Shown: positions 21,100-32,357 of the stretch, in pieces
Layout: every line of letters begins with the position of its first letter
How positions within the stretch are numbered: the stretch's first letter is position 1
Assembly: GCF_014645015.1 (NCBI RefSeq)
Contig: NZ_BMLC01000001.1
Span: forward strand, 1,068,585 to 1,132,584
Direction of reading: 5' to 3'
Length of the DNA stretch: 64,000 bases
Source of the DNA: Salinibacterium xinjiangense
GTDB lineage: Bacteria; Actinomycetota; Actinomycetes; Actinomycetales; Microbacteriaceae
Made by a program: the position numbers and the translations under genes
The notes under the pieces: generated by a model
What the model was told of the DNA's origin: nothing
Seen by the model: the letters and a program-made list of their open reading frames with translations, nothing else
Databases searched by the model: none

Positions 21100-21777
21100 T
21101 CAGCCACCCTCTTTGGGTGTGGTTTCTTCTGCCACGGGGGGATCCGTGAGGACATAGACGTAGCCGTCGATCTTGACCTTGCCACCGCCGCCGTCATAGG
21201 TGATGTCGAGCGCCTCGACCAGGAAGAGCCGAGTGCCGTATTGCACCTTCTGAATGAACGCCAGGAGCCCACCCGGGTTGCCGGTGAACTCGACCGAGAC
21301 CGGTACTGAGACGAAACCCTCCGGCGCCGGGGAGACCGGGCCCGCTTCGGGGGCGACAGCGGCCGGGTCGTCGCCCTCCCCCGGATCCGGTGCCGCAGCT
21401 GGCGCCGCCAGTGCTGCCGCTTCGGCGGCAGCGCCGAACCTCTCGGGAATGCCGGCCGTGATCGAGGTGAGTTCGACGCCGCTCTCGGCTGCCAGGGCGT
21501 TCAGCTGTCCGAGCAGGGTCGACACTTGAGCATCCGGAGGGAGCGCATCCTTCAACTCATCCAGCTGCTTAGTCAGCGCCGGGAGGTCTTCGTCCAGTTT
21601 CTTCAGCTTGACCAGAGTCTGCTCATACGTCGCGTTGAGCATCTCGACGCCGACCCGTTCATCGTCGGCCGCCTGCACTTCGGCGAGCCTCGGGGCGATA
21701 CCGAGAACCCAGCCACCGGCCACGATCACCACCGTCACCAGAACCGCACCAGCGGTCCACCATCGTGTCGTCGTCAC
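21100..21777 (-). CDS. pilO: Type IV pilus alignment protein PilO-like
   Basis: The GTG at 21777 gives 225 residues: MTTTRWWTAG, one transmembrane helix (residues 8-28), then a coiled-coil region (ERVGVEMLNATYEQTLVKLK to LTKQLDELKDAL), an Ala/Pro-rich linker (about 118-150) and a compact C-terminal domain with VPVSVEFTGNPGGLLAFIQK. This is the layout of PilO, the inner-membrane partner of PilN. The frame is open further upstream, but that part is inside pilN. The stop of pilN and this GTG are 1 bp apart, so translation is coupled. It is the last gene of the pilus locus. Confidence 0.82.
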   Translation of the reverse strand: MTTTRWWTAGAVLVTVVIVAGGWVLGIAPRLAEVQAADDERVGVEMLNATYEQTLVKLKKLDEDLPALTKQLDELKDALPPDAQVSTLLGQLNALAAESGVELTSITAGIPERFGAAAEAAALAAPAAAPDPGEGDDPAAVAPEAGPVSPAPEGFVSVPVSVEFTGNPGGLLAFIQKVQYGTRLFLVEALDITYDGGGGKVKIDGYVYVLTDPPVAEETTPKEGG

Positions 21778-21778
21778 G

Positions 21779-22543
21779 TCACTTCTCCTCGTCGTTCTGG
21801 AATCGCAACAGGTACGCCTCGTCGTTGACGAGGAGCTGCAGGCCGACGACGTAGCCCGCTGCCGGGCTACCCGCCACAGTGGCCGGCGGGGCAATTCCCG
21901 CGAAGCCCGTGATCCCGGCGAGATCGTCGAACCAGGCTTCGACATCCGGCACAGTCACGCTCGTGGCGGTGATTGTTATGGTCGCTACTGCTGCTTGCTG
22001 CAGTGGGTTCTCGGCGATCGCTGCGCCCTCGCCGCCCCCCTCACTCGCGACCACGGGCGTGATCACCAACTTCGTCAGTGACACTCCATCCGGCAGCGTC
22101 GAGCTAACCTCGTCGAGATAGGCCCTCCAGTCGATCTCGGTTGCGGTTCCGACCGCTCGCGCGGCGATGGCCGCGTCGACCTCGTTGGCGATCTGCCTCG
22201 CCTCGGTGTAATCGAGCTGGCGTGCCAGGAGATCGAGGCTGCGGTCTCGCTCGAGCTGAAGGACGGCCTGACTGGTGATCGAACCGATCGTCGCGAATCC
22301 GACCGCGCCCGCCACGACGACGGCGACCATCACCGCGAGGATGACGAGCATCCTCACGACCCCTTTGCCCTTGTAGGCCGCCCTGACCTCTGGCGGCAGA
22401 AGGTCGGCACGGGGGGTACCGCCGACCGTGAGCGGTGCGGCGCTCGCCTTCTGAGCCTTCGTGGCCCGTGCCGCTTTCGGGACTCGCCGAGCTGTGGGTT
22501 CCTGCGCTTCGCTGGTCGGTGGCGCGTGAGTTTCTGTGGTCAT
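21779..22543 (-). CDS. pilN: Type IV pilus assembly protein PilN-like
   Basis: A 254-residue bitopic protein. Residues 1-60 are a cytoplasmic Ala/Lys-rich segment with DLLPPEVRAAYKGKG, a motif like the PilN peptide that binds PilM. A transmembrane helix (about 65-88) is followed by a periplasm-side helix and a ferredoxin-like fold ending GYVVGLQLLVNDEAYLLRFQ. Its ATG overlaps the pilM stop (ATGA). The PilM-binding motif usually lies at the very N-terminus; here it is preceded by about 45 extra residues. Confidence 0.82.
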   Translation of the reverse strand: MTTETHAPPTSEAQEPTARRVPKAARATKAQKASAAPLTVGGTPRADLLPPEVRAAYKGKGVVRMLVILAVMVAVVVAGAVGFATIGSITSQAVLQLERDRSLDLLARQLDYTEARQIANEVDAAIAARAVGTATEIDWRAYLDEVSSTLPDGVSLTKLVITPVVASEGGGEGAAIAENPLQQAAVATITITATSVTVPDVEAWFDDLAGITGFAGIAPPATVAGSPAAGYVVGLQLLVNDEAYLLRFQNDEEK

Positions 22544-23577
22544 GCTGCCCTCCCCAGGGCAAGTCCGAGGGCAACCGCGGCCCGGGCTGGTGAGCCCGCC
22601 AGCTGCTTGGCATCCTTGCCGAGTTCGACCTTCGAGAACGGTTCGGCGATGGTGACGATCATCGATGTCATCGACGCCAGCGTCTCTGCGAAGCCCGGCA
22701 TCCGCGCCGCACCGCCGCTGAGCACGACCTGCTCCACCTGGCGGTTCTCGCGAGTGTTCGCGAAGTAGTTGAGTGTATTGCGAAGGCTGTTCAGCAGTTC
22801 GCGGGTGACCTCGTAGATCACCTCCACAGCCGGGCGGTTCTCGGGCAACACGCTTCCGCTCGCCATGCCGATTCCAGCCTTGACCTGTTCGGCCAGCTCA
22901 CGATCGATACCGAGCCGGGAGATGAGTGCACGGGTGAGATCGTCACCCCCAGCCGGAATGATGCGCACAAACTGTGGCACCCCACCGGTCGAAATGACGA
23001 TGTTGGTGGTCGTCGCTCCGATATCGATGACCGCGGCTGTGCCAGACGTGTTTGCTCCGATTGATCTTTGCAGCGCGAAGGGGATGAGGTCGACGTCGAC
23101 AGGCCACAGGCCCGCTTTGCGCACCGCGTTCACGTTGGCGAACACGGATGCCTTGACCGCGGCGACCAGGAGCCCACTCACGGCCGGCCCTGTCTCGCTA
23201 TTAACTTCGGCGATCGGGTAAAAGTCGAGCAGGGCCTCAGCCACGGGCACCGGGATCAGGTCCTGCACCTGAAACGGCAGCGCCTCCCTGATGGCGTCGA
23301 TCGAACCGCGCGGCACCACGAGGTCGCGTGCGAGCACTTTCTGATTGCCGAGGCCGATGACCACGTCGCGGCTGCGGAACTTGCCCTCGGCCCAGAGGCG
23401 CTTGAGCGCCGTCGCGACGGTGTTCTCCTCGATCACCTCCCCGTTGCGTACTGCGCCCTCCGGTAGTGCGACCTCGTGGTAGCGCTGCACCACCGGCCGC
23501 TTCCTTGCGACATATTCCAGCTCGATGCCGCGAAGCACCTCATTGCCGATGTCGAGCCCGACTATTCGTGTCGTCAC
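22540..23577 (-). CDS. pilM: Type IV pilus assembly ATPase-fold protein PilM
   Basis: The GTG at 23577, behind AGGGGAACGAC, gives 345 residues starting MTTRIVGLDIGNEVLRGIEL. The actin-like nucleotide-binding signs are GLDIGNE (phosphate 1), AVIDIGATTTNIVI (phosphate 2) and VVLSGGAARMPGFAETLA (adenosine motif). PilM is cytoplasmic and couples PilN to the pilus motors. Residues upstream of this start have no PilM character, so the longer frame is rejected. It is 10 bp downstream of the prepilin peptidase gene. Confidence 0.9.
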   Translation of the reverse strand: MTTRIVGLDIGNEVLRGIELEYVARKRPVVQRYHEVALPEGAVRNGEVIEENTVATALKRLWAEGKFRSRDVVIGLGNQKVLARDLVVPRGSIDAIREALPFQVQDLIPVPVAEALLDFYPIAEVNSETGPAVSGLLVAAVKASVFANVNAVRKAGLWPVDVDLIPFALQRSIGANTSGTAAVIDIGATTTNIVISTGGVPQFVRIIPAGGDDLTRALISRLGIDRELAEQVKAGIGMASGSVLPENRPAVEVIYEVTRELLNSLRNTLNYFANTRENRQVEQVVLSGGAARMPGFAETLASMTSMIVTIAEPFSKVELGKDAKQLAGSPARAAVALGLALGRAA

Positions 23578-23587
23578 GTCGTTCCCC

Positions 23588-24409
23588 CTAGACCAATCCG
23601 AACAGCGCCAGATACGCGGTCGCGATCTGCTCTCCAGCAAAGATTCCCAGCCAGGCCCCCAGAATCATCCACGGGCCGAACGGGATGGCCGTGCGGCCGG
23701 TCGCACCGCGCGTCATCACGAGCACCAGACTAAACAGTCCGCCGAGCAGAAACGCGCCGAACGCGCCCACCGCGAGCGGCCCCCATCCGAGCCACCCGAG
23801 GTAGAGGCCGATGACCCCGGCGAGTTTCACGTCACCGAACCCCATCCCGCCCCGATACAGGTTCGCCATCGCGAAGTAGGCCGCGAAGAGACCGATCGCA
23901 CCGAGAGCCATCGTGAGCAGCCGCTCTGGTTCTCCCGCCGTGAGCGCGGCAGCCGTGAGCAGTACACCGGCGACCGGGTAGGCCGGAAGCACGATGCTGT
24001 TCGGCAGCCGTCGGGTGTCGAGGTCGATGAGGGCGAGGGCGACACTGATCGCGGCAAAGTAGAGGAACGCGACAAGGGTGAGCACTGTCGCGGCGACCGC
24101 CACAACGCCGACCGCCTCGGAGGCGGCATTCGCCAGCACGAACAACGCGACGGCCGCGAAGAAGAGAGCGGTTCCGAGCTCGACCAGCGGGTAGCGTGCG
24201 GATATCGGCGCTCGGCAGTCCCGGCATCTGCCGCGCAGTACGAGCCAGGAGAGAACGGGCAGGTTATCGAGCGGTCGCACTCGCGCGCCACAGCTTCCGC
24301 AGGCGCTCGGGGGCGACACGATCGACCGGCCGGCCGGCACCCTGAATACGACGACGTTGAGAAACGAACCGATCAGGGAGCCGAAAACGCCCACACCCAT
24401 GGCGATCAT
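23588..24409 (-). CDS. pilD: Prepilin leader peptidase / N-methyltransferase
   Basis: A 273-residue polytopic membrane protease that cleaves prepilin leaders and methylates the new N-terminus. The N-terminal cytoplasmic domain has two zinc-binding pairs, CGSCGARVRPLDNLPVLSWL and RCRDCRAPISARYPLVE. The two catalytic aspartates are in LIDLDTRRLPN and MGFGDVKLAG. The start MIAMGVGVFGSLIGSFLNVV at 24409 overlaps the upstream stop by one base. The frame extends further upstream but that is a shadow of the neighbouring gene. Confidence 0.92.
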   Translation of the reverse strand: MIAMGVGVFGSLIGSFLNVVVFRVPAGRSIVSPPSACGSCGARVRPLDNLPVLSWLVLRGRCRDCRAPISARYPLVELGTALFFAAVALFVLANAASEAVGVVAVAATVLTLVAFLYFAAISVALALIDLDTRRLPNSIVLPAYPVAGVLLTAAALTAGEPERLLTMALGAIGLFAAYFAMANLYRGGMGFGDVKLAGVIGLYLGWLGWGPLAVGAFGAFLLGGLFSLVLVMTRGATGRTAIPFGPWMILGAWLGIFAGEQIATAYLALFGLV

Positions 24410-26085
24410 CAGCGCAGCTCTCGGAAGCTCACCCTGCCGCCCAGCTTCGAGCTGCTCAGCACGAGGATGGGCGGAAGGCTCGCGTCGAAATTCACCCCGG
24501 GCACGCCGACGGGTACATAGGTGAGCTGTGCCTGCTGCAGAAACTCCATGGTTCCGCCGTAGAGCTGCCCGCGCCAGAAGTTGCGGTCGCTGATGATCTT
24601 GCACGGCGTGTACGCCATCGCGGCGATCGTCGGAGCGATGTTCGCCTCGTTCGTGAGCAGGATGGTGCCCACCGGGTTGTTGGGGTCGACTACCGCGGGA
24701 CAGGTGGGCGTGGGCTTCCCATCTGCCCCCGTGTCGTTGATGTTGTCCGGCACCATGAACCAGAGGTAGCGGGTCGCCAAAGAATTTACGGGCGTTGTCG
24801 CGACGAGCTTGTCGACATTGAACTTCCACGCGATGAAGGTGATATTCGCGCTCAGTTCAATATTCCTAATGTTGTTCTGAAATTCCAGGCCTGCTGCACC
24901 GCATCCGCGGGCGTCGACCACGATGTTGCCGGTCGTCGCCGACTTAGTCGCGAGGGAATCCCAGAAGGCGTTGGAGTTGCCGATCATGCAGCTGCTGGTC
25001 GCGACAGGCCAGGTGAGCACCGTGTATCCCGCCCACGCGGACGTGTTGGGGTAGGGGATGTCGGTCCAGTCCGGAACCCTCGGAGCCGGAAGCGGTGCGA
25101 GTCCGGTGAAGTTGGTAGACGTCGTGCCGTCTATTTTTCCGCTTCCCGAGACCACAACCGACCCGCTCGAAACGACGTTCCCCTGCACCTGGCCGGAACT
25201 GCCCACCTTCACCGAGTTGGCCGCCGTGCCCGAGAGTGAGACGCTGCCCTGCACGAGGTCGTCGATCTGCAGGTTTCCCGCAGAGCTGATATTTCCGCGT
25301 ACCTCTCCGATGCCGCTACTCAGCTTGACAACATCGGAGCCCGACGCGACCCCCTGGCCGATAGCGATGATGTCTTTCTTCACCACGGTGCCGAGGCCAG
25401 AGATGTCGACGTACTTCGACACGTGGATCGCCCCGTTGACGTCGCAGCGATCAAGCTTCACGTAGCCGTTGGCCAGGAGTATGCTCCCGTCGATGGTGGC
25501 GCCGTTCGAGCAGATCACGTTGCCGTTCTTGATCTGCACGTCCGCAGCGATGCTTGACAACGCCGAGTTCAGCACGAAGTTCTTGAAGTCGCCTTCCATG
25601 GTGTTGGCGTACACGGCGGGCTCGATCACCGGAGCCGGAACGAAGATCGGTACATTGGCGTAGACGGCTTCGACGATGCGACTGTCGCTCGGCGACGCTC
25701 CGGTGACCGTGGTGTTCGCGGCGTACCCCGTTGAGGTGATTTTGATGAGAGTCGAGGCGTTGGTCGGGCACCCGGTCACCCAGATGGGTGTTGTCGAACT
25801 GATCGAGTGCTGGAGCGAGTACTTGTAGCGCGGTGCGGTAGTCGTCTGGAAGGTGGTGGTGCAGCCGGACTGGATGGCGACCAGTGCGCGGTCTACACCG
25901 GCCTCCGCGGCGGCCCTCGCCTGCACTCCGGCGCGGGCCGAGGTCGTTACCCCGAGGCCGTTGATCGTGGCGGTGACGACGGTGACGCCGATCACGCTCG
26001 TGACGAGGGCAAGGCCGATGACGGCGAGCAGGGTGCTGCCGCGTTCGTCGCGCTGGGAAAAGAGTCGGTTCTGCTTCAGAAACAT
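24409..26085 (-). CDS. Large PilX-like pilus protein with bactofilin-like repeat region
   Basis: The ATG at 26085 gives 558 residues. The N-terminus has a short basic leader (to ERG, residue 16) and the hydrophobic helix STLLAVIGLALVTSVIGVTV, like PilX-type minor pilins, but without the usual Glu at position 5. Residues about 190-345 form short repeats such as GSVSLSGTAANSVKVGSSGQ, VQGNVVSSGSVVVSGSGKID and GEVRGNISSAGNLQID, typical of the beta-helix of bactofilin/polymer-forming proteins. The C-terminal 200 residues are Asn/Thr-rich with scattered cysteines. It overlaps the minor-pilin gene by 10 bp and pilD by 1 bp. A role at the pilus tip or as an adhesin is inferred from position and domain mix only. 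Confidence 0.75.
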   Translation of the reverse strand: MFLKQNRLFSQRDERGSTLLAVIGLALVTSVIGVTVVTATINGLGVTTSARAGVQARAAAEAGVDRALVAIQSGCTTTFQTTTAPRYKYSLQHSISSTTPIWVTGCPTNASTLIKITSTGYAANTTVTGASPSDSRIVEAVYANVPIFVPAPVIEPAVYANTMEGDFKNFVLNSALSSIAADVQIKNGNVICSNGATIDGSILLANGYVKLDRCDVNGAIHVSKYVDISGLGTVVKKDIIAIGQGVASGSDVVKLSSGIGEVRGNISSAGNLQIDDLVQGSVSLSGTAANSVKVGSSGQVQGNVVSSGSVVVSGSGKIDGTTSTNFTGLAPLPAPRVPDWTDIPYPNTSAWAGYTVLTWPVATSSCMIGNSNAFWDSLATKSATTGNIVVDARGCGAAGLEFQNNIRNIELSANITFIAWKFNVDKLVATTPVNSLATRYLWFMVPDNINDTGADGKPTPTCPAVVDPNNPVGTILLTNEANIAPTIAAMAYTPCKIISDRNFWRGQLYGGTMEFLQQAQLTYVPVGVPGVNFDASLPPILVLSSSKLGGRVSFRELR

Positions 26086-26630
26086 ATCGGGTTGTCCGCT
26101 CCTGCTGGTGGTGGTTGCCGACTGGCTGCCGACGTGGTGACGAGCACGGCCTTGCTGGTGCCGTTCTTGGACTCGAAGGTGAGATCGATGCGCCTCGCGG
26201 TCAGGGCGAACACGGGGGTCGACCCGGCGGGCTTGATGTCGGCGTTGAGCACCGTCCAGGTAGCCAGCTCGGCCGCGGTGGGGGCGGCGATTGCCGTGGC
26301 GGATTGCTTCCAGCGGATCTGGCCGCCACCGACATGCCATGCGTTGCAGGTCCAGACCGGCGTGGCTGCGGAACCGACGGAGCGTGTCATGAGCAGCTGC
26401 GTTCCCGCAGCCGGAGCGGTGAGCTTGATGTCGCTCGAGTTGCGCACGCCGTTTGTCACGGACTGGGCGACGACCTGGCCCGAGTTCGTGGCGCTGTTGA
26501 CTCCCCGTACTGTGCGCTCGGCATTGATCGAGTTGAGGAAGATGCCGCCGACAATGAGCAGGACGACAACGGACAGCACGATGTAAACGAGGAGTTCGAC
26601 GAGGGTGAACCCGTCATCCGAATCGTTCAT
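26076..26630 (-). CDS. Minor pilin, PilW-like
   Basis: The ATG at 26630 gives 184 residues: MNDSDDG, then FTLVELLVYIVLSVVVLLIV, a class III prepilin signal with cleavage after Gly7 and Glu at mature position 5. The rest is a soluble domain with two or three cysteines and ends DNPICF. The ATG overlaps the upstream pilin stop as ATGA. Minor pilins of this type prime pilus assembly; the PilW label is by position and size, not by close similarity. Confidence 0.8.
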   Translation of the reverse strand: MNDSDDGFTLVELLVYIVLSVVVLLIVGGIFLNSINAERTVRGVNSATNSGQVVAQSVTNGVRNSSDIKLTAPAAGTQLLMTRSVGSAATPVWTCNAWHVGGGQIRWKQSATAIAAPTAAELATWTVLNADIKPAGSTPVFALTARRIDLTFESKNGTSKAVLVTTSAASRQPPPAGADNPICF

Positions 26631-27058
26631 GGCGCCGCCGTCTTGACGTAGAAGAGAGTGGTGGCCTCGGCGAGCGGCTGGGCGACGCCGGTTCTGGTGA
26701 CCCAGACACGCACGCTGACAACGCCGGGGTATGTCAAGGGGCACGCGGCGACCTGGCGGTGCGGCTGGTACACGGTGCCGCGTTCGTCGGTCGTAGTGGC
26801 CGGGGCGACGTCGTCGAAGACGCTCACTTCGGAGCAGGTCGTGCCGAGTTCGCGAAGTTTGTCGAGCTGCTGGCCGGCGAGCTGACTGGCGGTGGCGATG
26901 GTGGTCGTTCGGACCGACGTAGTCAGGCCCTGGACGAGGATGGGGAGAAAAGCTGTGGCGAGAAGAGCAAGAAGGAACATCGAGATGATGATCTCGATGA
27001 GGCCGATGCCGGCATCATCCGACCACGACTGCGACTGCGACCGCCCTGTATCCAGCAC
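26627..27058 (-). CDS. Minor pilin, PilV-like
   Basis: I choose GTG 27058 because GGAGA lies 6 bases upstream and because the longer in-frame start (27115) falls inside the pilA terminator hairpin. This gives 143 residues with a 17-residue leader ending SDDAG and the helix IGLIEIIISMFLLALLATAF (Glu5 present). Cysteines in TTCSEVSVFD and AACPLTYPG may form a disulfide. It is co-directional with pilA and separated from it by the terminator, so it is expected at lower levels. Confidence 0.78.
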   Translation of the reverse strand: MLDTGRSQSQSWSDDAGIGLIEIIISMFLLALLATAFLPILVQGLTTSVRTTTIATASQLAGQQLDKLRELGTTCSEVSVFDDVAPATTTDERGTVYQPHRQVAACPLTYPGVVSVRVWVTRTGVAQPLAEATTLFYVKTAAP

Positions 27059-27092
27059 TTGCGTCTCCGTTTCTCGGGTGAACTTTCGGAAA

Positions 27093-27125
27093 GACCGATG
27101 GGGCACCATTGGCACCCCATCGGTC
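27093..27125 (-). terminator. Terminator after the major pilin gene
   Basis: GACCGATGGGG (27093-27103) and CCCCATCGGTC (27115-27125) form a perfect 11-bp stem with an 11-base loop, 14 bp beyond the pilA stop. On the minus strand it is followed by TTTCC. It would make pilA mRNA abundant relative to the minor pilin genes downstream. Confidence 0.8.
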
Positions 27126-27138
27126 CGTTTGGCGCGAT

Positions 27139-27546
27139 TTAGGCGCAGGCGGTGTTGACGACGCCCCCGGAATTTGTGATGCTGAATTTCTTGGTTGTTT
27201 CACTCACGGCGTCGATGCAGAAAGCCGACCCGCCGGTCTTGATAGTCGTCGTGACGCCGGTTGTGGCAACGAAGCCATATGCCGCAGCCTTCAGGTCAGC
27301 AATAGCCGTAGTTCCGGCAGGGACGTCGACAAGGAGGCTGACGTAGGCGACCTTGGCGTTGGCGAGGTCAGACTTGGCCGCTGAGTCCTTCGCTTGGTTC
27401 TGCTGCCCGAGGAAGATCGGGATGGCGATGGCGGCGAGAATGCCGATGATGATGACGACGACGAGGAGCTCGATGAGGGTGAAGCCCTTGTCGTTGTTCC
27501 TGATGCGCTCGTTGCGAGCCTCGAAGGCCTTGGTGAGTGAAAGCAT
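27139..27546 (-). CDS. pilA: Major type IV pilin PilA
   Basis: The ATG at 27546 gives 135 residues. The leader is 21 residues, ends NNDKG, and is followed by FTLIELLVVVIIIGILAAIA, a textbook type IV pilin helix with Glu5. The mature protein is about 114 residues with two cysteines (AFCIDAVSE and the C-terminal NTACA), probably the D-region disulfide. A TTG at 27558 would add four residues. It lies between pilC and a terminator, with its own leader region holding tandem repeats. Confidence 0.92.
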   Translation of the reverse strand: MLSLTKAFEARNERIRNNDKGFTLIELLVVVIIIGILAAIAIPIFLGQQNQAKDSAAKSDLANAKVAYVSLLVDVPAGTTAIADLKAAAYGFVATTGVTTTIKTGGSAFCIDAVSETTKKFSITNSGGVVNTACA

Positions 27547-27563
27547 GTGCGGTTCCAATCCTG

Positions 27564-27702: not shown

Positions 27703-28935
27703 CTATTCGATGAGAGTGAAAATGGAGAAAATCGGCAGGTAGAGCGCCACGATCATGCCGCCGAGCACGACGCCCATCAAGGCGATCATGAGCGGCTCGA
27801 TGAGCGCCGTGAGCTGCTCGGTGGTGGACTCGACCTCCTGGTCGTAAAAGTCCGCGATCTTGGACAGCATTGTCTCCAGTGCGCCGGAATCCTCGCCGAC
27901 CGAGATCATCTGGGTGACCATCGCCGGGAAGATGGACTCCTCAGAGAGCGGACCGGAGACGGTTTTGCCCTGGCGCACCGACTCCTGCACCGCGATGAGA
28001 GCCTTCTCGATGACATAGTTGCCCGAGGTCGAGCCGACGATCGAGAGTGCCTGCAGAATGGGCACGCCCGACTTCATCATCGTCGAGAAGTTGCGGGTGA
28101 ATCGCGCGATCGCAATCTTGGTCATCAGCTGCCCGAACACGGGCAGCTTGAGCTTGATCGGATCGACGGCCTTACGCACCCTCTCGGTGTTCTTGTTCTT
28201 TGCCCACCAAAACGAGAACGCGATGAGCACGACGACGATCACGGGGGCCAGCCATTGAAGGATCCCGGATAGCCAGACCAGAATGAGGGTGGGCAGCGGA
28301 AGCGTGCCACCGAGTCCGTCGAACATAGTCTTGAAGACCGGCACGATGAAGATCAGCATGCCGACCACGCCCAGCAGCGCCATGATCAGCACCACCACGG
28401 GGTAGGTCATGGCCGACTTGATGGTGCCGCGCAGCTTGACCTCCTTCTCGTAGTTGTCGGCGATGGACTCAAGGGAGTCCTCCAGAAACCCGCCGGTCTC
28501 GCCAGCTCGCACGAGGTTGATCATGAGCGGCGGGAAGATCACATCGTGCTTCGCGAAGGCCTCGGAGAGCGAGGCGCCGGCCTCGATATCCAACCGCACC
28601 CGCTCGAGCGTCTTTTTCAGGGTCGCGTTCTCGCTCTGGTCGGTAAGGATCGTCAGCGCGCGAAGCAGGGACAGGCCGGCAGAGATCATCGTGGCCATCT
28701 GACGGCTCATGATGGCAAGATCCTTGAGCCCGACCCGCTTCTCGAACAGGCCGCCGAGCGAGATCTCCTTTTTCAGCCCGGTGCCGCTTCCGGCCGCCGC
28801 GATCGACGTCGGAGCGATGCCCATGGTGCGTAATCGCGAGGCGACGGCCGTCTCGCTGACGGCATCTACCTTGCCTTTGACGATCTTTCCCGCAGAGTCG
28901 CGGCCCTTGTAGGCGAAGCTGGTGGCGGTAGCCAT
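27703..28935 (-). CDS. pilC: Type IV pilus inner membrane platform protein PilC
   Basis: A 410-residue GspF-family protein. Residues 1-60 are the short N-terminal domain (FAYKGRDSAGKIVKGKVDAV). Two GspF domains follow, each with conserved segments: FARQM-like MSRQMATMISAGLSLLRALT, GETGGFLEDSLESIADNYEK in the first, GVPILQALSIVGSTSGNYVI and GEDSGALETMLSKIADFYDQ in the second. Three hydrophobic helices lie near 170-190, 220-240 and 380-400. PilC docks the ATPases to the growing pilus. It is 3 bp downstream of pilT. Confidence 0.93.
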   Translation of the reverse strand: MATATSFAYKGRDSAGKIVKGKVDAVSETAVASRLRTMGIAPTSIAAAGSGTGLKKEISLGGLFEKRVGLKDLAIMSRQMATMISAGLSLLRALTILTDQSENATLKKTLERVRLDIEAGASLSEAFAKHDVIFPPLMINLVRAGETGGFLEDSLESIADNYEKEVKLRGTIKSAMTYPVVVLIMALLGVVGMLIFIVPVFKTMFDGLGGTLPLPTLILVWLSGILQWLAPVIVVVLIAFSFWWAKNKNTERVRKAVDPIKLKLPVFGQLMTKIAIARFTRNFSTMMKSGVPILQALSIVGSTSGNYVIEKALIAVQESVRQGKTVSGPLSEESIFPAMVTQMISVGEDSGALETMLSKIADFYDQEVESTTEQLTALIEPLMIALMGVVLGGMIVALYLPIFSIFTLIE

Positions 28936-28938
28936 GGT

Positions 28939-30696
28939 CTACTTGCCCCCGGCGGAGTAGCGATCGCCGAAATCTATTCCGCCGGTCATGCCGCCACCGT
29001 CCCGGGTTTCCTGCCGGGAGATCAGCCGCTTGAGCGTCTCCTCGTCGTGGCACTTCTCGTAGGCCGCCCGCACCGTAATCTGGCCGCTATTGACCAGTTC
29101 GGCGAGGTGCTGATCCATGGTGAACATGCCGTGCTCGCGCCCGGCCTGCATCGACGAGCTGATCTGGTACGTCTTGCCCTCGCGGATGAGGTTGTTGATC
29201 GCCGGCGTGGCCACGAGCACCTCGGTTGCGACCACTCGGCCTTTGCCGCTCGCCTTCTTGATGAGCGTCTGGCAGACGACGCCCTGCAGGGTCGCGGCGA
29301 GCTGCGCCCGCACCTGGCCCTGCTGGTGCGGCGGGAAAACGTCGATAATTCGGTCGATCGTTTGTGCGGCATCCTGTGTGTGCAGGGTTGCGAACACGAG
29401 GTGCCCGGTCTCCGCCGCGGTGAGTGCGACCGACACGGTCTCGAGGTCGCGCAGCTCGCCAACCAGGATCACGTCGGGGTCCTGCCGCAGCACGTGCTTG
29501 AGCGCCGCCGCGAAGCTGTGGGTGTCGTTGCCGACCTCGCGCTGGTTGACGAGCGACTTGTGGTTGCCGTGCAGGAACTCGATCGGGTCTTCGACCGTCA
29601 TGATGTGGTCCGTCCGGGTGCGGTTGACCAGATCGACGAGCGCGGCGAGGGTCGTCGATTTACCCGAACCGGTCGGGCCGGTGACGAGCACGAGCCCACG
29701 AGAAAGCTTCGCGAAGTTGCCTACAGACTCAGGGACGCCGAGCTCGTGGAGCTGTTTGATCTCGGTCGGAATCAGTCGAAAGGCTCCACCGAGCGCCTCG
29801 CGCTGCTGAAAGATGTTCACGCGGAAACGGGTGGTGCCAGACAGCGTGTACGCGAAGTCAAGCTCAAGCTCGCGCTCGAAAATCTCCTGCTGCTCTGACG
29901 ACATGATGCTGTACAACGCGGCCCGCAGGTCGTCGGGCTGCCAGACCGGAGCTGCGGCGATCGGGCGCAGCTCACCGTCGACACGGATCATCGGTGGCGC
30001 ACCGGCTGAGACGTGAAGATCGGAGGCCAGCGCGATCACGACCGCGTTCAGCGCCTGCACAATGCGCGGATCGCTGCCCTCCTGGCCGTCGCCCGGAACC
30101 GGAGCACCGGGCGACGCTTCTGCAGTGAGCACGGTCTCGGTCGGGCGATGCACGGGCTGAAGCGCCTGCTGCGGGAGCGCGTGGATGGGCGCGGCCTGGG
30201 CGGGAAGAGGTTGTGCGGGAGCGAATTGGTAGGCCACCTGAGCTGGCGGGGTTGCCTCCAGAGGGGCCGGAATGGAGACGACAACCTCAGGCACTGCCTC
30301 GTGGGTAGCGAGTACCTGCGGCGCTGGCATTGTCGCTGCCTGCACGAAAGGAGCAACCGGCGGGGTCGCCAGCCGCGCGGCGGCATTGGCTGCAGGGACC
30401 AAGGTCGGCGGGAGTTGCGCGTGGGTGTCCGCGAGCGGGGCGGGCTGGGAAAAGAGCCGTGACACCATGATGGGTGCGGCTGGCGGCGCAACGGCACCGG
30501 GGGCCGGCATGTTCACTGGCGGAAGCGACGGGCCGGGAGCGGGCGCTGCTGCCGTGGCATCCTGACCCTGCTCTGCGTTTCGCGGGCGCATTATCTCTTC
30601 GAAAGACGGGGGCGCGTCAGCAGAACGCCGACGACCACCGGCGTCAGGCCACACTTGACCGGTATCTAATGGAATTTCGTACACTGGCTTGCTCAT
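28939..30696 (-). CDS. pilT: Retraction ATPase PilT with long Pro/Ala-rich N-terminal extension
   Basis: The ATG at 30696 (overlapping the pilB stop as ATGA) gives 585 residues. The PilT core starts near residue 205 (DPRIVQALNAVVIALASDLH) and has Walker A GPTGSGKSTT (340-349), the Asp box TVEDPIEFLH, Walker B DVILVGELRD and the PilT-specific NLIREGK motif near the C-terminus. Normal PilT is about 350 residues. The first 200 residues are a Pro/Ala/Gln-rich, probably disordered segment. The product is expected to depolymerise pili and drive twitching; the tail's role is unknown. Confidence 0.9.
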   Translation of the reverse strand: MSKPVYEIPLDTGQVWPDAGGRRRSADAPPSFEEIMRPRNAEQGQDATAAAPAPGPSLPPVNMPAPGAVAPPAAPIMVSRLFSQPAPLADTHAQLPPTLVPAANAAARLATPPVAPFVQAATMPAPQVLATHEAVPEVVVSIPAPLEATPPAQVAYQFAPAQPLPAQAAPIHALPQQALQPVHRPTETVLTAEASPGAPVPGDGQEGSDPRIVQALNAVVIALASDLHVSAGAPPMIRVDGELRPIAAAPVWQPDDLRAALYSIMSSEQQEIFERELELDFAYTLSGTTRFRVNIFQQREALGGAFRLIPTEIKQLHELGVPESVGNFAKLSRGLVLVTGPTGSGKSTTLAALVDLVNRTRTDHIMTVEDPIEFLHGNHKSLVNQREVGNDTHSFAAALKHVLRQDPDVILVGELRDLETVSVALTAAETGHLVFATLHTQDAAQTIDRIIDVFPPHQQGQVRAQLAATLQGVVCQTLIKKASGKGRVVATEVLVATPAINNLIREGKTYQISSSMQAGREHGMFTMDQHLAELVNSGQITVRAAYEKCHDEETLKRLISRQETRDGGGMTGGIDFGDRYSAGGK

Positions 30697-32357
30697 ACCA
30701 CCACTCTCATGATCTCTTCGATTGACGTGAGACCGATTTTTGCTTTCCCCCAGCCGTCGAGACGGAGGGTGCACATGCCCTGGTCAATGGCGACCTTCGT
30801 AATTTCTGCGCTGGACGCCCGCACCACCGCGAGGCGTTCGATCTCTTCAGTCACGAGCATCACCTCGTGCAGTGCAATACGGCCGCGGTAACCCGTATTC
30901 GAGCAGCTGGAGCAACCGACAGGGCGGAAGAGGGTCGGGATGGGCATGCTGCGATCCCAGCCGAAACGCAGCGCTTCGAGCTCGGCCGTATCGTGCTGGT
31001 ACGGTTCCCGGCAGCGCTCGCACAGCCTGCGCGCCAGTCGCTGGGCTACCACGCAGTCGATGGCGGATCCGACAAGAAAGGGCTCGATATCCATCTCGGT
31101 CAGTCGGGTGATCGCGCTTGGCGCGTCGTTCGTGTGAAGCGTCGAGAGCACGAGGTGGCCCGTGAGCGACGCTTCGATGGCGATCTGGGCCGTCTCGTGG
31201 TCACGGATCTCACCGATCAGCACCACATCGGGGTCGGAACGCAGAATCGACCGGAGAGCGCTGGCGAAGGTGAGCCCCGCCTTCGGATTGACCTGGACCT
31301 GGTTGATGCCCTGCATCCGGAACTCGACGGGGTCTTCAACGGTGATGACGTTGATCTCGGGCTTCGCAACGGTGCTCAGCGTTGTGTAGAGCGTCGTCGA
31401 CTTTCCGGAACCTGTGGGCCCGGTGACGAGGATCATGCCGTAAGGCTTCGTATACGACGAGCGGTATGCCTCGAAGTTGCGAGGGGAGAGCGCCAGATTC
31501 TCCATATCGAGCGTGCCGGCGTTGTTGTCCAGGATTCGCATGACGACTTTTTCACCCCAGACCACAGGCAGGGTCGCGACCCGGAGGTCGATCTTGCGAC
31601 CGGCGTGACGTACCGAGATTCGGCCATCCTGAGGCTTTCGGCGCTCGGCGATATCAATCTCGGCCATGATCTTCAGGCGAGATGTGACGCCGTTCTGGAT
31701 CGTCTTTGGGGCCGACTGCATCTCATGCAGGACCCCGTCGATGCGGTATCGCACGTGCATCTCGTGCTCGCCGGGCTCGATGTGGATGTCGGACGCCTTA
31801 TCCTGAATGGCCTGGCTGATGATCAGGTTAACGAAACGTACGATCGGTGCGTCGTTTGCCGACTCCTCCTGGTTGACGACAACAACGGCGCTACCGGTCT
31901 CCTCCTCTAGGGCGGATGTCAGGTCGCTGAGCTCATCATCGGCGCGGTGGTATTTCTCGATCGCAGCCTTGAGATCCGCGGGCGCCACGACGACCGCGCG
32001 AATCTGCATCCGAGTTGCCGCCCGCACATCGTCGGTAGCGAACACGTTGCCGGGGTCGACCATGGCCAACGTGAGTACACCGTCGACGATGTCGATCGGC
32101 AACACCTGGTGCCGGCGGCACGTGACCGCGGGTACGCGCGAGACGGCGTCGCGGTCGACCGGGTACTCGATGAGTTCGACGAACGGAAGTTCTGCCTGCA
32201 TAGCGCGGGCGGACGCGAGCTGGACCTCGGTGACGAGGCCCTGCTCAACAAGAGATCGGACAGAGTCTTCGTCTTCACCCCAGACGCCGGAGATGCTGTC
32301 GACTTGCTCGATGGGCACCACCCCGCGAAGGATGAGGATTTCTGTTAGGGAAGCCAA
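30693..32357 (-). CDS. pilB: Pilus extension ATPase PilB
   Basis: A 554-residue hexameric motor. The N-terminal MshEN-like region (about 1-135) has RGVVPIEQVDSI and FVELIEYPVDRD. The core has Walker A GPTGSGKSTT (313-322), EDPVEFRMQGINQVQVNPKA, Walker B DVVLIGEIRD, HLVLSTLHTNDAPSAITRL, and the four-cysteine zinc site CERC (446-449) plus CSSC (about 479-482). The start is TTG at 32357 behind GAGGAG. It is the first gene of the pilus locus, 159 bp after the rpoC terminator. I found no strong promoter in that gap. Confidence 0.94.
   Translation of the reverse strand: MASLTEILILRGVVPIEQVDSISGVWGEDEDSVRSLVEQGLVTEVQLASARAMQAELPFVELIEYPVDRDAVSRVPAVTCRRHQVLPIDIVDGVLTLAMVDPGNVFATDDVRAATRMQIRAVVVAPADLKAAIEKYHRADDELSDLTSALEEETGSAVVVVNQEESANDAPIVRFVNLIISQAIQDKASDIHIEPGEHEMHVRYRIDGVLHEMQSAPKTIQNGVTSRLKIMAEIDIAERRKPQDGRISVRHAGRKIDLRVATLPVVWGEKVVMRILDNNAGTLDMENLALSPRNFEAYRSSYTKPYGMILVTGPTGSGKSTTLYTTLSTVAKPEINVITVEDPVEFRMQGINQVQVNPKAGLTFASALRSILRSDPDVVLIGEIRDHETAQIAIEASLTGHLVLSTLHTNDAPSAITRLTEMDIEPFLVGSAIDCVVAQRLARRLCERCREPYQHDTAELEALRFGWDRSMPIPTLFRPVGCSSCSNTGYRGRIALHEVMLVTEEIERLAVVRASSAEITKVAIDQGMCTLRLDGWGKAKIGLTSIEEIMRVVV

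Follow-up and report, generated by a model that had tools for sequence, protein, structure and literature searches.

A candidate type IV pilus tip pilin with a predicted beta-solenoid arm of variable length in Salinibacterium xinjiangense and its relatives

The DNA analysed here (the window) is a stretch of 64,000 nucleotides from Salinibacterium xinjiangense (contig NZ_BMLC01000001.1, positions 1,068,585 to 1,132,584). Its minus strand carries a pil locus in the order pilB, pilT, pilC, pilA, pilV, pilW, a gene that we call the K gene, pilD, pilM, pilN, and pilO (Table 1), flanked by what we take to be rpoC on one side and fusA/tuf on the other. The frame placed at pilC is presumably PilC, and the labels of PilV and PilW as I- and J-type rest on gene order and weak profile matches. 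The homologue of the long pilT frame in locus L021 is long as well (692 aa). On the opposite strand inside the pilT frame, ARAGORN placed a tRNA-Ala (ggc) at 30294-30384 (+), which is probably a false positive. The frames of the K gene and pilW have 10 bases in common, and at the other end a single base belongs to both the K stop codon and the likely start of pilD (TGATG), in agreement with an earlier note on this DNA, which had put the protein in a minor-pilin position overlapping its neighbours. No second copy was found at E ≤ 1 in a search of the organism's own 3.02 Mb genome. A search of this genome for PilY1 gave no match, a result that is uninformative since the same search matched 0 of 14 control genomes.

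Table 1. The pil locus of the window and the parts of its K-type pilin, with the basis of each assignment.
Feature	Position	Strand	Basis or remark
PilO	21100..21867	-	PF04350 1.5e-6
PilN	21779..22543	-	PF05137 0.018, weak; same place in relatives
PilM	22540..23577	-	PF11104 7.3e-45
PilD prepilin peptidase	23588..24409	-	PF06750 3e-33, PF01478 1.8e-14 (scanned from 24400)
Putative K-type tip minor pilin, 558 aa	24409..26085	-	Clean ORF; homologues and context
Long C-terminal strand, residues 541-557	24415..24465	-	DSSP of model; possibly last strand of the pilin sheet, by analogy with ComZ (PMC6561018)
Predicted beta-solenoid arm, residues 151-539	24469..25635	-	Model; VIA-align (tapirins, ComZ, ice-binding proteins)
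Length-variable part of arm, residues 214-338	25072..25446	-	Range 51-261 residues across the 70 aligned members
Bactofilin-like rungs, residues 261-321	25123..25305	-	Pfam PF04519 E 3e-6
Pilin-type beta-sheet, residues 74-150	25636..25866	-	Model strands 78-81, 86-94, 113-121, 135-150
Hydrophobic helix alpha-1, residues 17-73, GspK-like	25867..26037	-	AlphaFold model; start of NCBIfam GspK profile in relatives
Prepilin-type leader, residues 1-16, ending DERG	26038..26085	-	Gly16 in 70/70 aligned members; PilD cleavage inferred
PilW-like minor pilin (J-type), with Glu5	26076..26630	-	N_methyl 2.3e-5
PilV-like minor pilin (I-type), with Glu5	26627..27115	-	TIGR02523 PilV 0.0012, under cut-off
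PilA, probable major pilin, with Glu5	27139..27558	-	N_methyl 1.3e-10; GspG/PilA profiles under cut-off
PilC platform protein	27703..28935	-	ORF; same place in relatives
PilT-like ATPase, long Pro/Ala-rich N-terminal extension	28939..30774	-	T2SSE 1.8e-50; true start probably inside frame
PilB-like ATPase	30693..32357	-	T2SSE 1.9e-137

The K-type pilin begins with a leader ending at Gly16, followed by a hydrophobic helix without Glu5, as had been read from the sequence before. Its mature position 5 is Ala, not the Glu found in PilA, PilV, and PilW of the window, and Glu is also absent at this position from all 70 members of our main alignment (A 46, S 7, G 6, T 4, M 3, V 2, L 1, P 1). This alignment (A3) holds a subset of the homologues found; L032, L097, L098, L120, and L131 were omitted for being too distant, broken, or too long, and so was L027, whose gene is split in two frames in the assembly. 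An NCBIfam scan of the S. xinjiangense protein itself returned no match, and PilX_N (PF14341) was absent in a Pfam scan. Among relatives, the NCBIfam GspK N-terminal profile matched 38 of the 70 members and PilX_N eight of them, both at E ≤ 0.1; the best PilX_N match (E 0.00087) scored 19.7 bits against a gathering score of 25.5, and the best relative under the GspK equivalog model NF037980 scored 28.8 bits, far under the curated cut-off of 130. Since the scores stay below these strict family models, we did not file the protein as GspK or PilX_N.

Our structural statements use an AlphaFold model built on the 70-member alignment (pLDDT 90.3, pTM 0.77; residues 1-15 with pLDDT < 50), a single-sequence model (pLDDT 34.1) having been discarded. 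The model consists of a helix (17-73), strands from 78 to 150, numerous short strands up to residue 523, and a final strand (541-557), and thereby combines a pilin helix and sheet with a beta-solenoid in one predicted chain. The beta-helix that the earlier note had placed at residues 180-350 is indeed predicted, but as part of a longer solenoid covering about 151-525. Its Asn/Thr-rich C-terminus did not emerge as a distinct part: Asn and Thr together make up 17.1% of residues 331-558, compared with 20.1% of 17-150 and 11.7% of 151-330, and the highest value among five stretches tried was 22.5% (339-480). Cys192, 214, 366, 395, and 495 are invariant in the alignment, Cys75 (69/70), Cys462 (65/70), and Cys106 (57/70) occur in most members, and 44 of the 70 members have exactly eight cysteines. 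From this conservation, we infer that the cysteines would pair as disulfides.

The bactofilin-like character of the arm finds more support in the family than in the S. xinjiangense protein, where it is borderline. In this protein, PF04519 scored 27.8 bits in the protein scan and 28.6 in a six-frame genome search, against a cut-off of 27.9; since the same Pfam family also matched in 11 of 14 control genomes (above cut-off in 5), a lone match of this kind is weak. Bactofilin matched 33 of the 70 members at E ≤ 0.1, which is above chance, and periods of 12 and 18 residues in Gly and aliphatic residues exceeded shuffles in the 53 members whose stretch was of sufficient length, as expected of a three-sided solenoid, with a summed z that is inflated because these members are related and are not independent tests. 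In the S. xinjiangense protein alone, the periodicity is weak (top lag 12, z 2.4; lag 18, z 1.8).

A bactofilin-like scaffold, polymerising and anchored in the membrane or wall, would account for these matches, and a bactofilin of Myxococcus is said to interact with PilB and PilT (PMC4376143). Bactofilins such as BacA (PDB 2N3D), described in Pfam as polymer-forming and cytoskeletal, share solenoid turns and the borderline PF04519 match with our protein, in which, however, such turns make up one local section of a more extensive solenoid carried on a pilin. We regard the scaffold, a role that the earlier note had allowed beside that of a pilus tip or adhesin, as extremely improbable. A free-standing cytosolic bactofilin does not fit the prepilin leader, the pilin module, the ~390-residue predicted solenoid, and the conserved cysteines.

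The bactofilin-like match falls inside a stretch, Cys214-Pro338, that varies greatly in length. Across the 70 members, its standard deviation is 51 residues, compared with 8.6 for the part before and 14.0 for the part after, and its length correlates with total length (r 0.96). The shortest form of the arm, with 51-54 residues in this stretch, occurs in 15 of the 70. How far the arm reaches thus appears to vary among relatives with the gain or loss of solenoid sequence. Clean 18-residue steps in arm length did not emerge, the lengths forming loose clusters only.

The family recurs in Microbacteriaceae and accompanies pil genes at most of the loci examined. A protein search of 60 genomes, including that of S. 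xinjiangense, found a match in 14. Of the 13 relatives, 12 were examined and all 12 matches lay in the same pil locus, counting L032, a weak match of another tip-pilin type; genome G028 (weak match, four internal stops) was left out of the locus comparison. A profile search of 299 Microbacteriaceae genomes gave matches in 109 at E ≤ 0.001, while PilM occurred in 144 of the same genomes. Among the 64 genomes with a K match at E ≤ 1e-12, 63 have PilM, the sole exception being the fragmented assembly G162 with orphan cassette L128; among all 109, PilM was present in 101 and gave no match in 8. Conversely, the 144 PilM genomes divide into 63 with a strong K match, 38 with a weak one, and 43 with none. 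In the phylum as a whole, 33 of 396 genomes (including that of S. xinjiangense) had a match at E ≤ 1e-10, which was partial in some of them. Plasmid and phage records gave no match by tblastn, and a pattern scan of genome contigs with the K-type pilin alone confirmed 0 relatives among 37 pattern matches.

Homologues had been expected always to lie beside pil genes, and most do. Pil genes were present at 38 of 40 loci picked from the 299-genome matches (mostly the strongest), in the form of machinery genes at 28 of a further 30, and at 8 of 12 loci from other taxonomic families. The rule does not hold throughout: besides the eight genomes without PilM, exceptions are L101 and L104 among the 40 and the orphan cassettes L124 and L128 among the 30, in which only pilV and pilW stand beside the K gene. 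Of the four distant loci without a machinery gene detectable by the references used, two (L174 and L177) are preceded by a V-like and a W-like pilin and L175 has one V-like pilin, while a pattern search found no neighbouring pilin in L172; the two pilins of L174 gave NCBIfam matches, PilV/GspI-like and pilin-like. PilV followed by PilW lies upstream of the K gene in the window, as it does at most of the relatives' loci. V-like and W-like pilins are thus steadier companions of the K gene than is the machinery. As separate observations, L101:8930-12043 and L104:8662-9444 share only solenoid/repeat or C-terminal parts, away from detected pil genes; the orphan pilV-pilW-K cassettes lie at L124:6047-8450 and L128:6606-9029, where the stretch examined showed no pil machinery; and very large V-like pilins accompany a solenoid K protein in L174:7137-11103 (617 aa) and L177:6660-11921 (865 aa).

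The best Foldseek match of the model was ComZ (PDB 6QVI), with low TM-scores (0.21-0.22, rmsd 15) that we ascribe, presumably, to a differing placement of the two domains. VIA-align also likened the arm to tapirins of Caldicellulosiruptor (PDB 6N2B, 6N2C), whose C-terminal solenoid fold matches it and whose solved chains comprise the C-terminal domains only, and to DUF3494-related ice-binding proteins. PDB 4WA0, titled a possible Caldicellulosiruptor adhesin, we take to be a tapirin, and we know of no pilin module in DUF3494 and related ice-binding proteins. The link to ComZ and tapirins is one of fold, since neither was among the matches of sequence-only PDB searches, and beta-solenoids are common. 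The NCBIfam tapirin profile found nothing in the K-type pilin and matched 2 of 70 relatives (best 0.0047), one weak Pfam Ice_binding match (0.034) occurred among the 70 members, and a viral fold library gave nothing at E ≤ 0.001.

In ComZ, a tip pilin of Thermus thermophilus described as DNA-binding (PMC6561018) and given as an example of solenoid insertion in a 2026 review (PMC13234629), the solenoid lies between the penultimate and last strands of the pilin sheet; in our model, a long strand (541-557) follows the solenoid and may be the last strand of the sheet. The K family differs from ComZ in its conserved cysteines, predicted to pair, and in an arm of variable length. DNA binding by ComZ involves two lysines. 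Other minor pilins offer further parallels. PilB and PilC of Streptococcus sanguinis are reported as Gram-positive type IV minor pilins with a large grafted module, thought to lie at the tip, and modular pilins are thus an established class (PMC8179133); the modules of the two have vWA and lectin-like folds, as opposed to a solenoid. The earlier note knew of no described pilus component with its combination of features, yet PilBac5 (SO_0850) of Shewanella oneidensis was noted in 2015 as a putative pilin adhesin with a bactofilin motif (PMC4376143). Its host is Gram-negative, and the likeness to our protein is drawn from the printed description only. The pilin-plus-bactofilin combination is therefore not new in print. 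No comparable solenoid pilin of Actinomycetota appeared in the titles or abstract openings of the open-licence literature searched, and the actinobacterial solenoid family with its variable arm is, to our knowledge, apparently new. The host of the K-type pilin is, judging from its lineage, presumably monoderm, a further difference from the host of ComZ.

Taken together, the missing Glu5, the position as third gene behind V- and W-like pilins, the GspK matches in relatives, and the solenoid suggest a ComZ-like K cap, and we consider it very likely that the protein caps the tip complex of a type IV pilus as its K-type subunit, with a pilin stem and a solenoid that would bind a ligand. Tip complexes are described as capped by a subunit without Glu5 (PMC10191384), and the GspK, PilK, and PilX caps share with our protein the lack of Glu5, the third place in a V-W-K set, and the N-terminal profile match; GspK is described as carrying an alpha-helical insertion (PMC6561018), in contrast to a solenoid. 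Alternatively, the K-type pilin might be a minor pilin along the shaft, a modulator and not a cap, as is stated for Neisseria PilX (PMC10191384). It adjoins other minor pilins, and modular pilins in the filament body are allowed in principle (PMC8179133). The absence of Glu5, the K-type profile matches in relatives, and the V-W-K order all speak against a place in the shaft, as does a solenoid of roughly 390 residues, which should clash there by the argument made for the ComZ solenoid (PMC6561018), so that we hold this alternative to be quite improbable.

For the cap, the sequence and model would imply the following course. PilD would cut the K-type pilin after Gly16. In a pilus, Glu5 usually makes the contact to the N-terminus of the next subunit up; without this residue, the K-type pilin would occupy the topmost place of the filament, over the I-like PilV and J-like PilW encoded just upstream, and the trio would start filament assembly. 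The bulk of the solenoid would keep it out of the shaft, so that it would travel outward as the working end of the filament and bind a ligand during extension and retraction by PilB and PilT.

Two kinds of ligand come into consideration for such a cap. As an equivalent of ComZ, the tip solenoid might bind extracellular DNA, which the pilus would pull in for transformation via ComEA and ComEC. This version finds support in the best Foldseek match, in the PilT of the locus, and in the ComEC (6.3e-43) and ComEA (2.8e-17) of the same genome, whose presence says little considering that 11 and 10 of 14 control genomes, respectively, have matches. With a pI of 4.7 (family median 4.9), the solenoid is acidic and does not speak for DNA, although ComZ too is described as being without a clear basic patch (PMC6561018), and variation in arm length suits diverse ligands better. 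We regard a DNA receptor as rather unlikely. Alternatively, the solenoid could grip glycans of cell walls, plants, or biofilms in the manner of tapirins, which bind cellulose (PMC7142884). A common fold shows no function and no carbohydrate-binding Pfam domain was found in a Pfam scan of the K-type pilin; we hold a glycan adhesin to be possible but not probable. As the candidate ligand, we slightly favour a surface or extracellular polysaccharide over DNA.

The slot between pilC and pilD does not always hold the solenoid family. Of 80 loci with this slot, 65 have it (profile score over 100) and the other 15 lack it. No pattern-found Glu5 pilin of the slot exceeds 254 residues in the former, while 13 of the 15 others have one of 416-456 residues (L139 and L142 have none that size); the pilin pattern can miss pilins, finding only one in L144. 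The 80 loci are related and form a non-random selection, made on profile score or presence of PilM, so that this split is a pattern and not a rate. Seven K proteins of this second set, compared with the 70-member profile, gave 97.5% probability (E 8.5e-12), the similarity being confined to residues 1-148, i.e., the pilin module. The large V pilin of the second set had a CarboxypepD_reg match in 4 of 5 members scanned, under cut-off where shown. In genome G091, the main locus (L134) holds the second set, and a first-type V-W-K cassette stands elsewhere as an orphan (L124). The pattern fits tip sets being swapped while the pilin base stays the same. Going further, ComZ, tapirins, and the actinobacterial K family may perhaps form one old lineage of solenoid tip pilins, in which the V-W-K trio of Actinomycetota would be a swappable cassette, exchanged whole at a fixed pil slot and also found as an orphan, with arm length and face evolving fast on a constant pilin base; we find this conceivable, at somewhat less than even odds. 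If it is true, one pilus machine could be fitted with different grippers.

Actinobacterial type IV pili appear to have been little studied. The K family offers a testable tip-adhesin candidate for a large bacterial family, in a set of proteins to which Pfam and NCBIfam gave weak or borderline matches only, and a fixed slot with differing tip sets would make tip specialisation directly testable, with a bearing on the wider question of how type IV pili choose their binding targets. Two genomes hold additional copies. In G187, a second tip-pilin copy is split in two frames (L120:6919-8550), probably through decay of a paralogue or a fault in the assembly. In G240, three pil gene sets lie within about 65 kb of one contig (L114, L115, and L143), two with the K family and one without a detected match.
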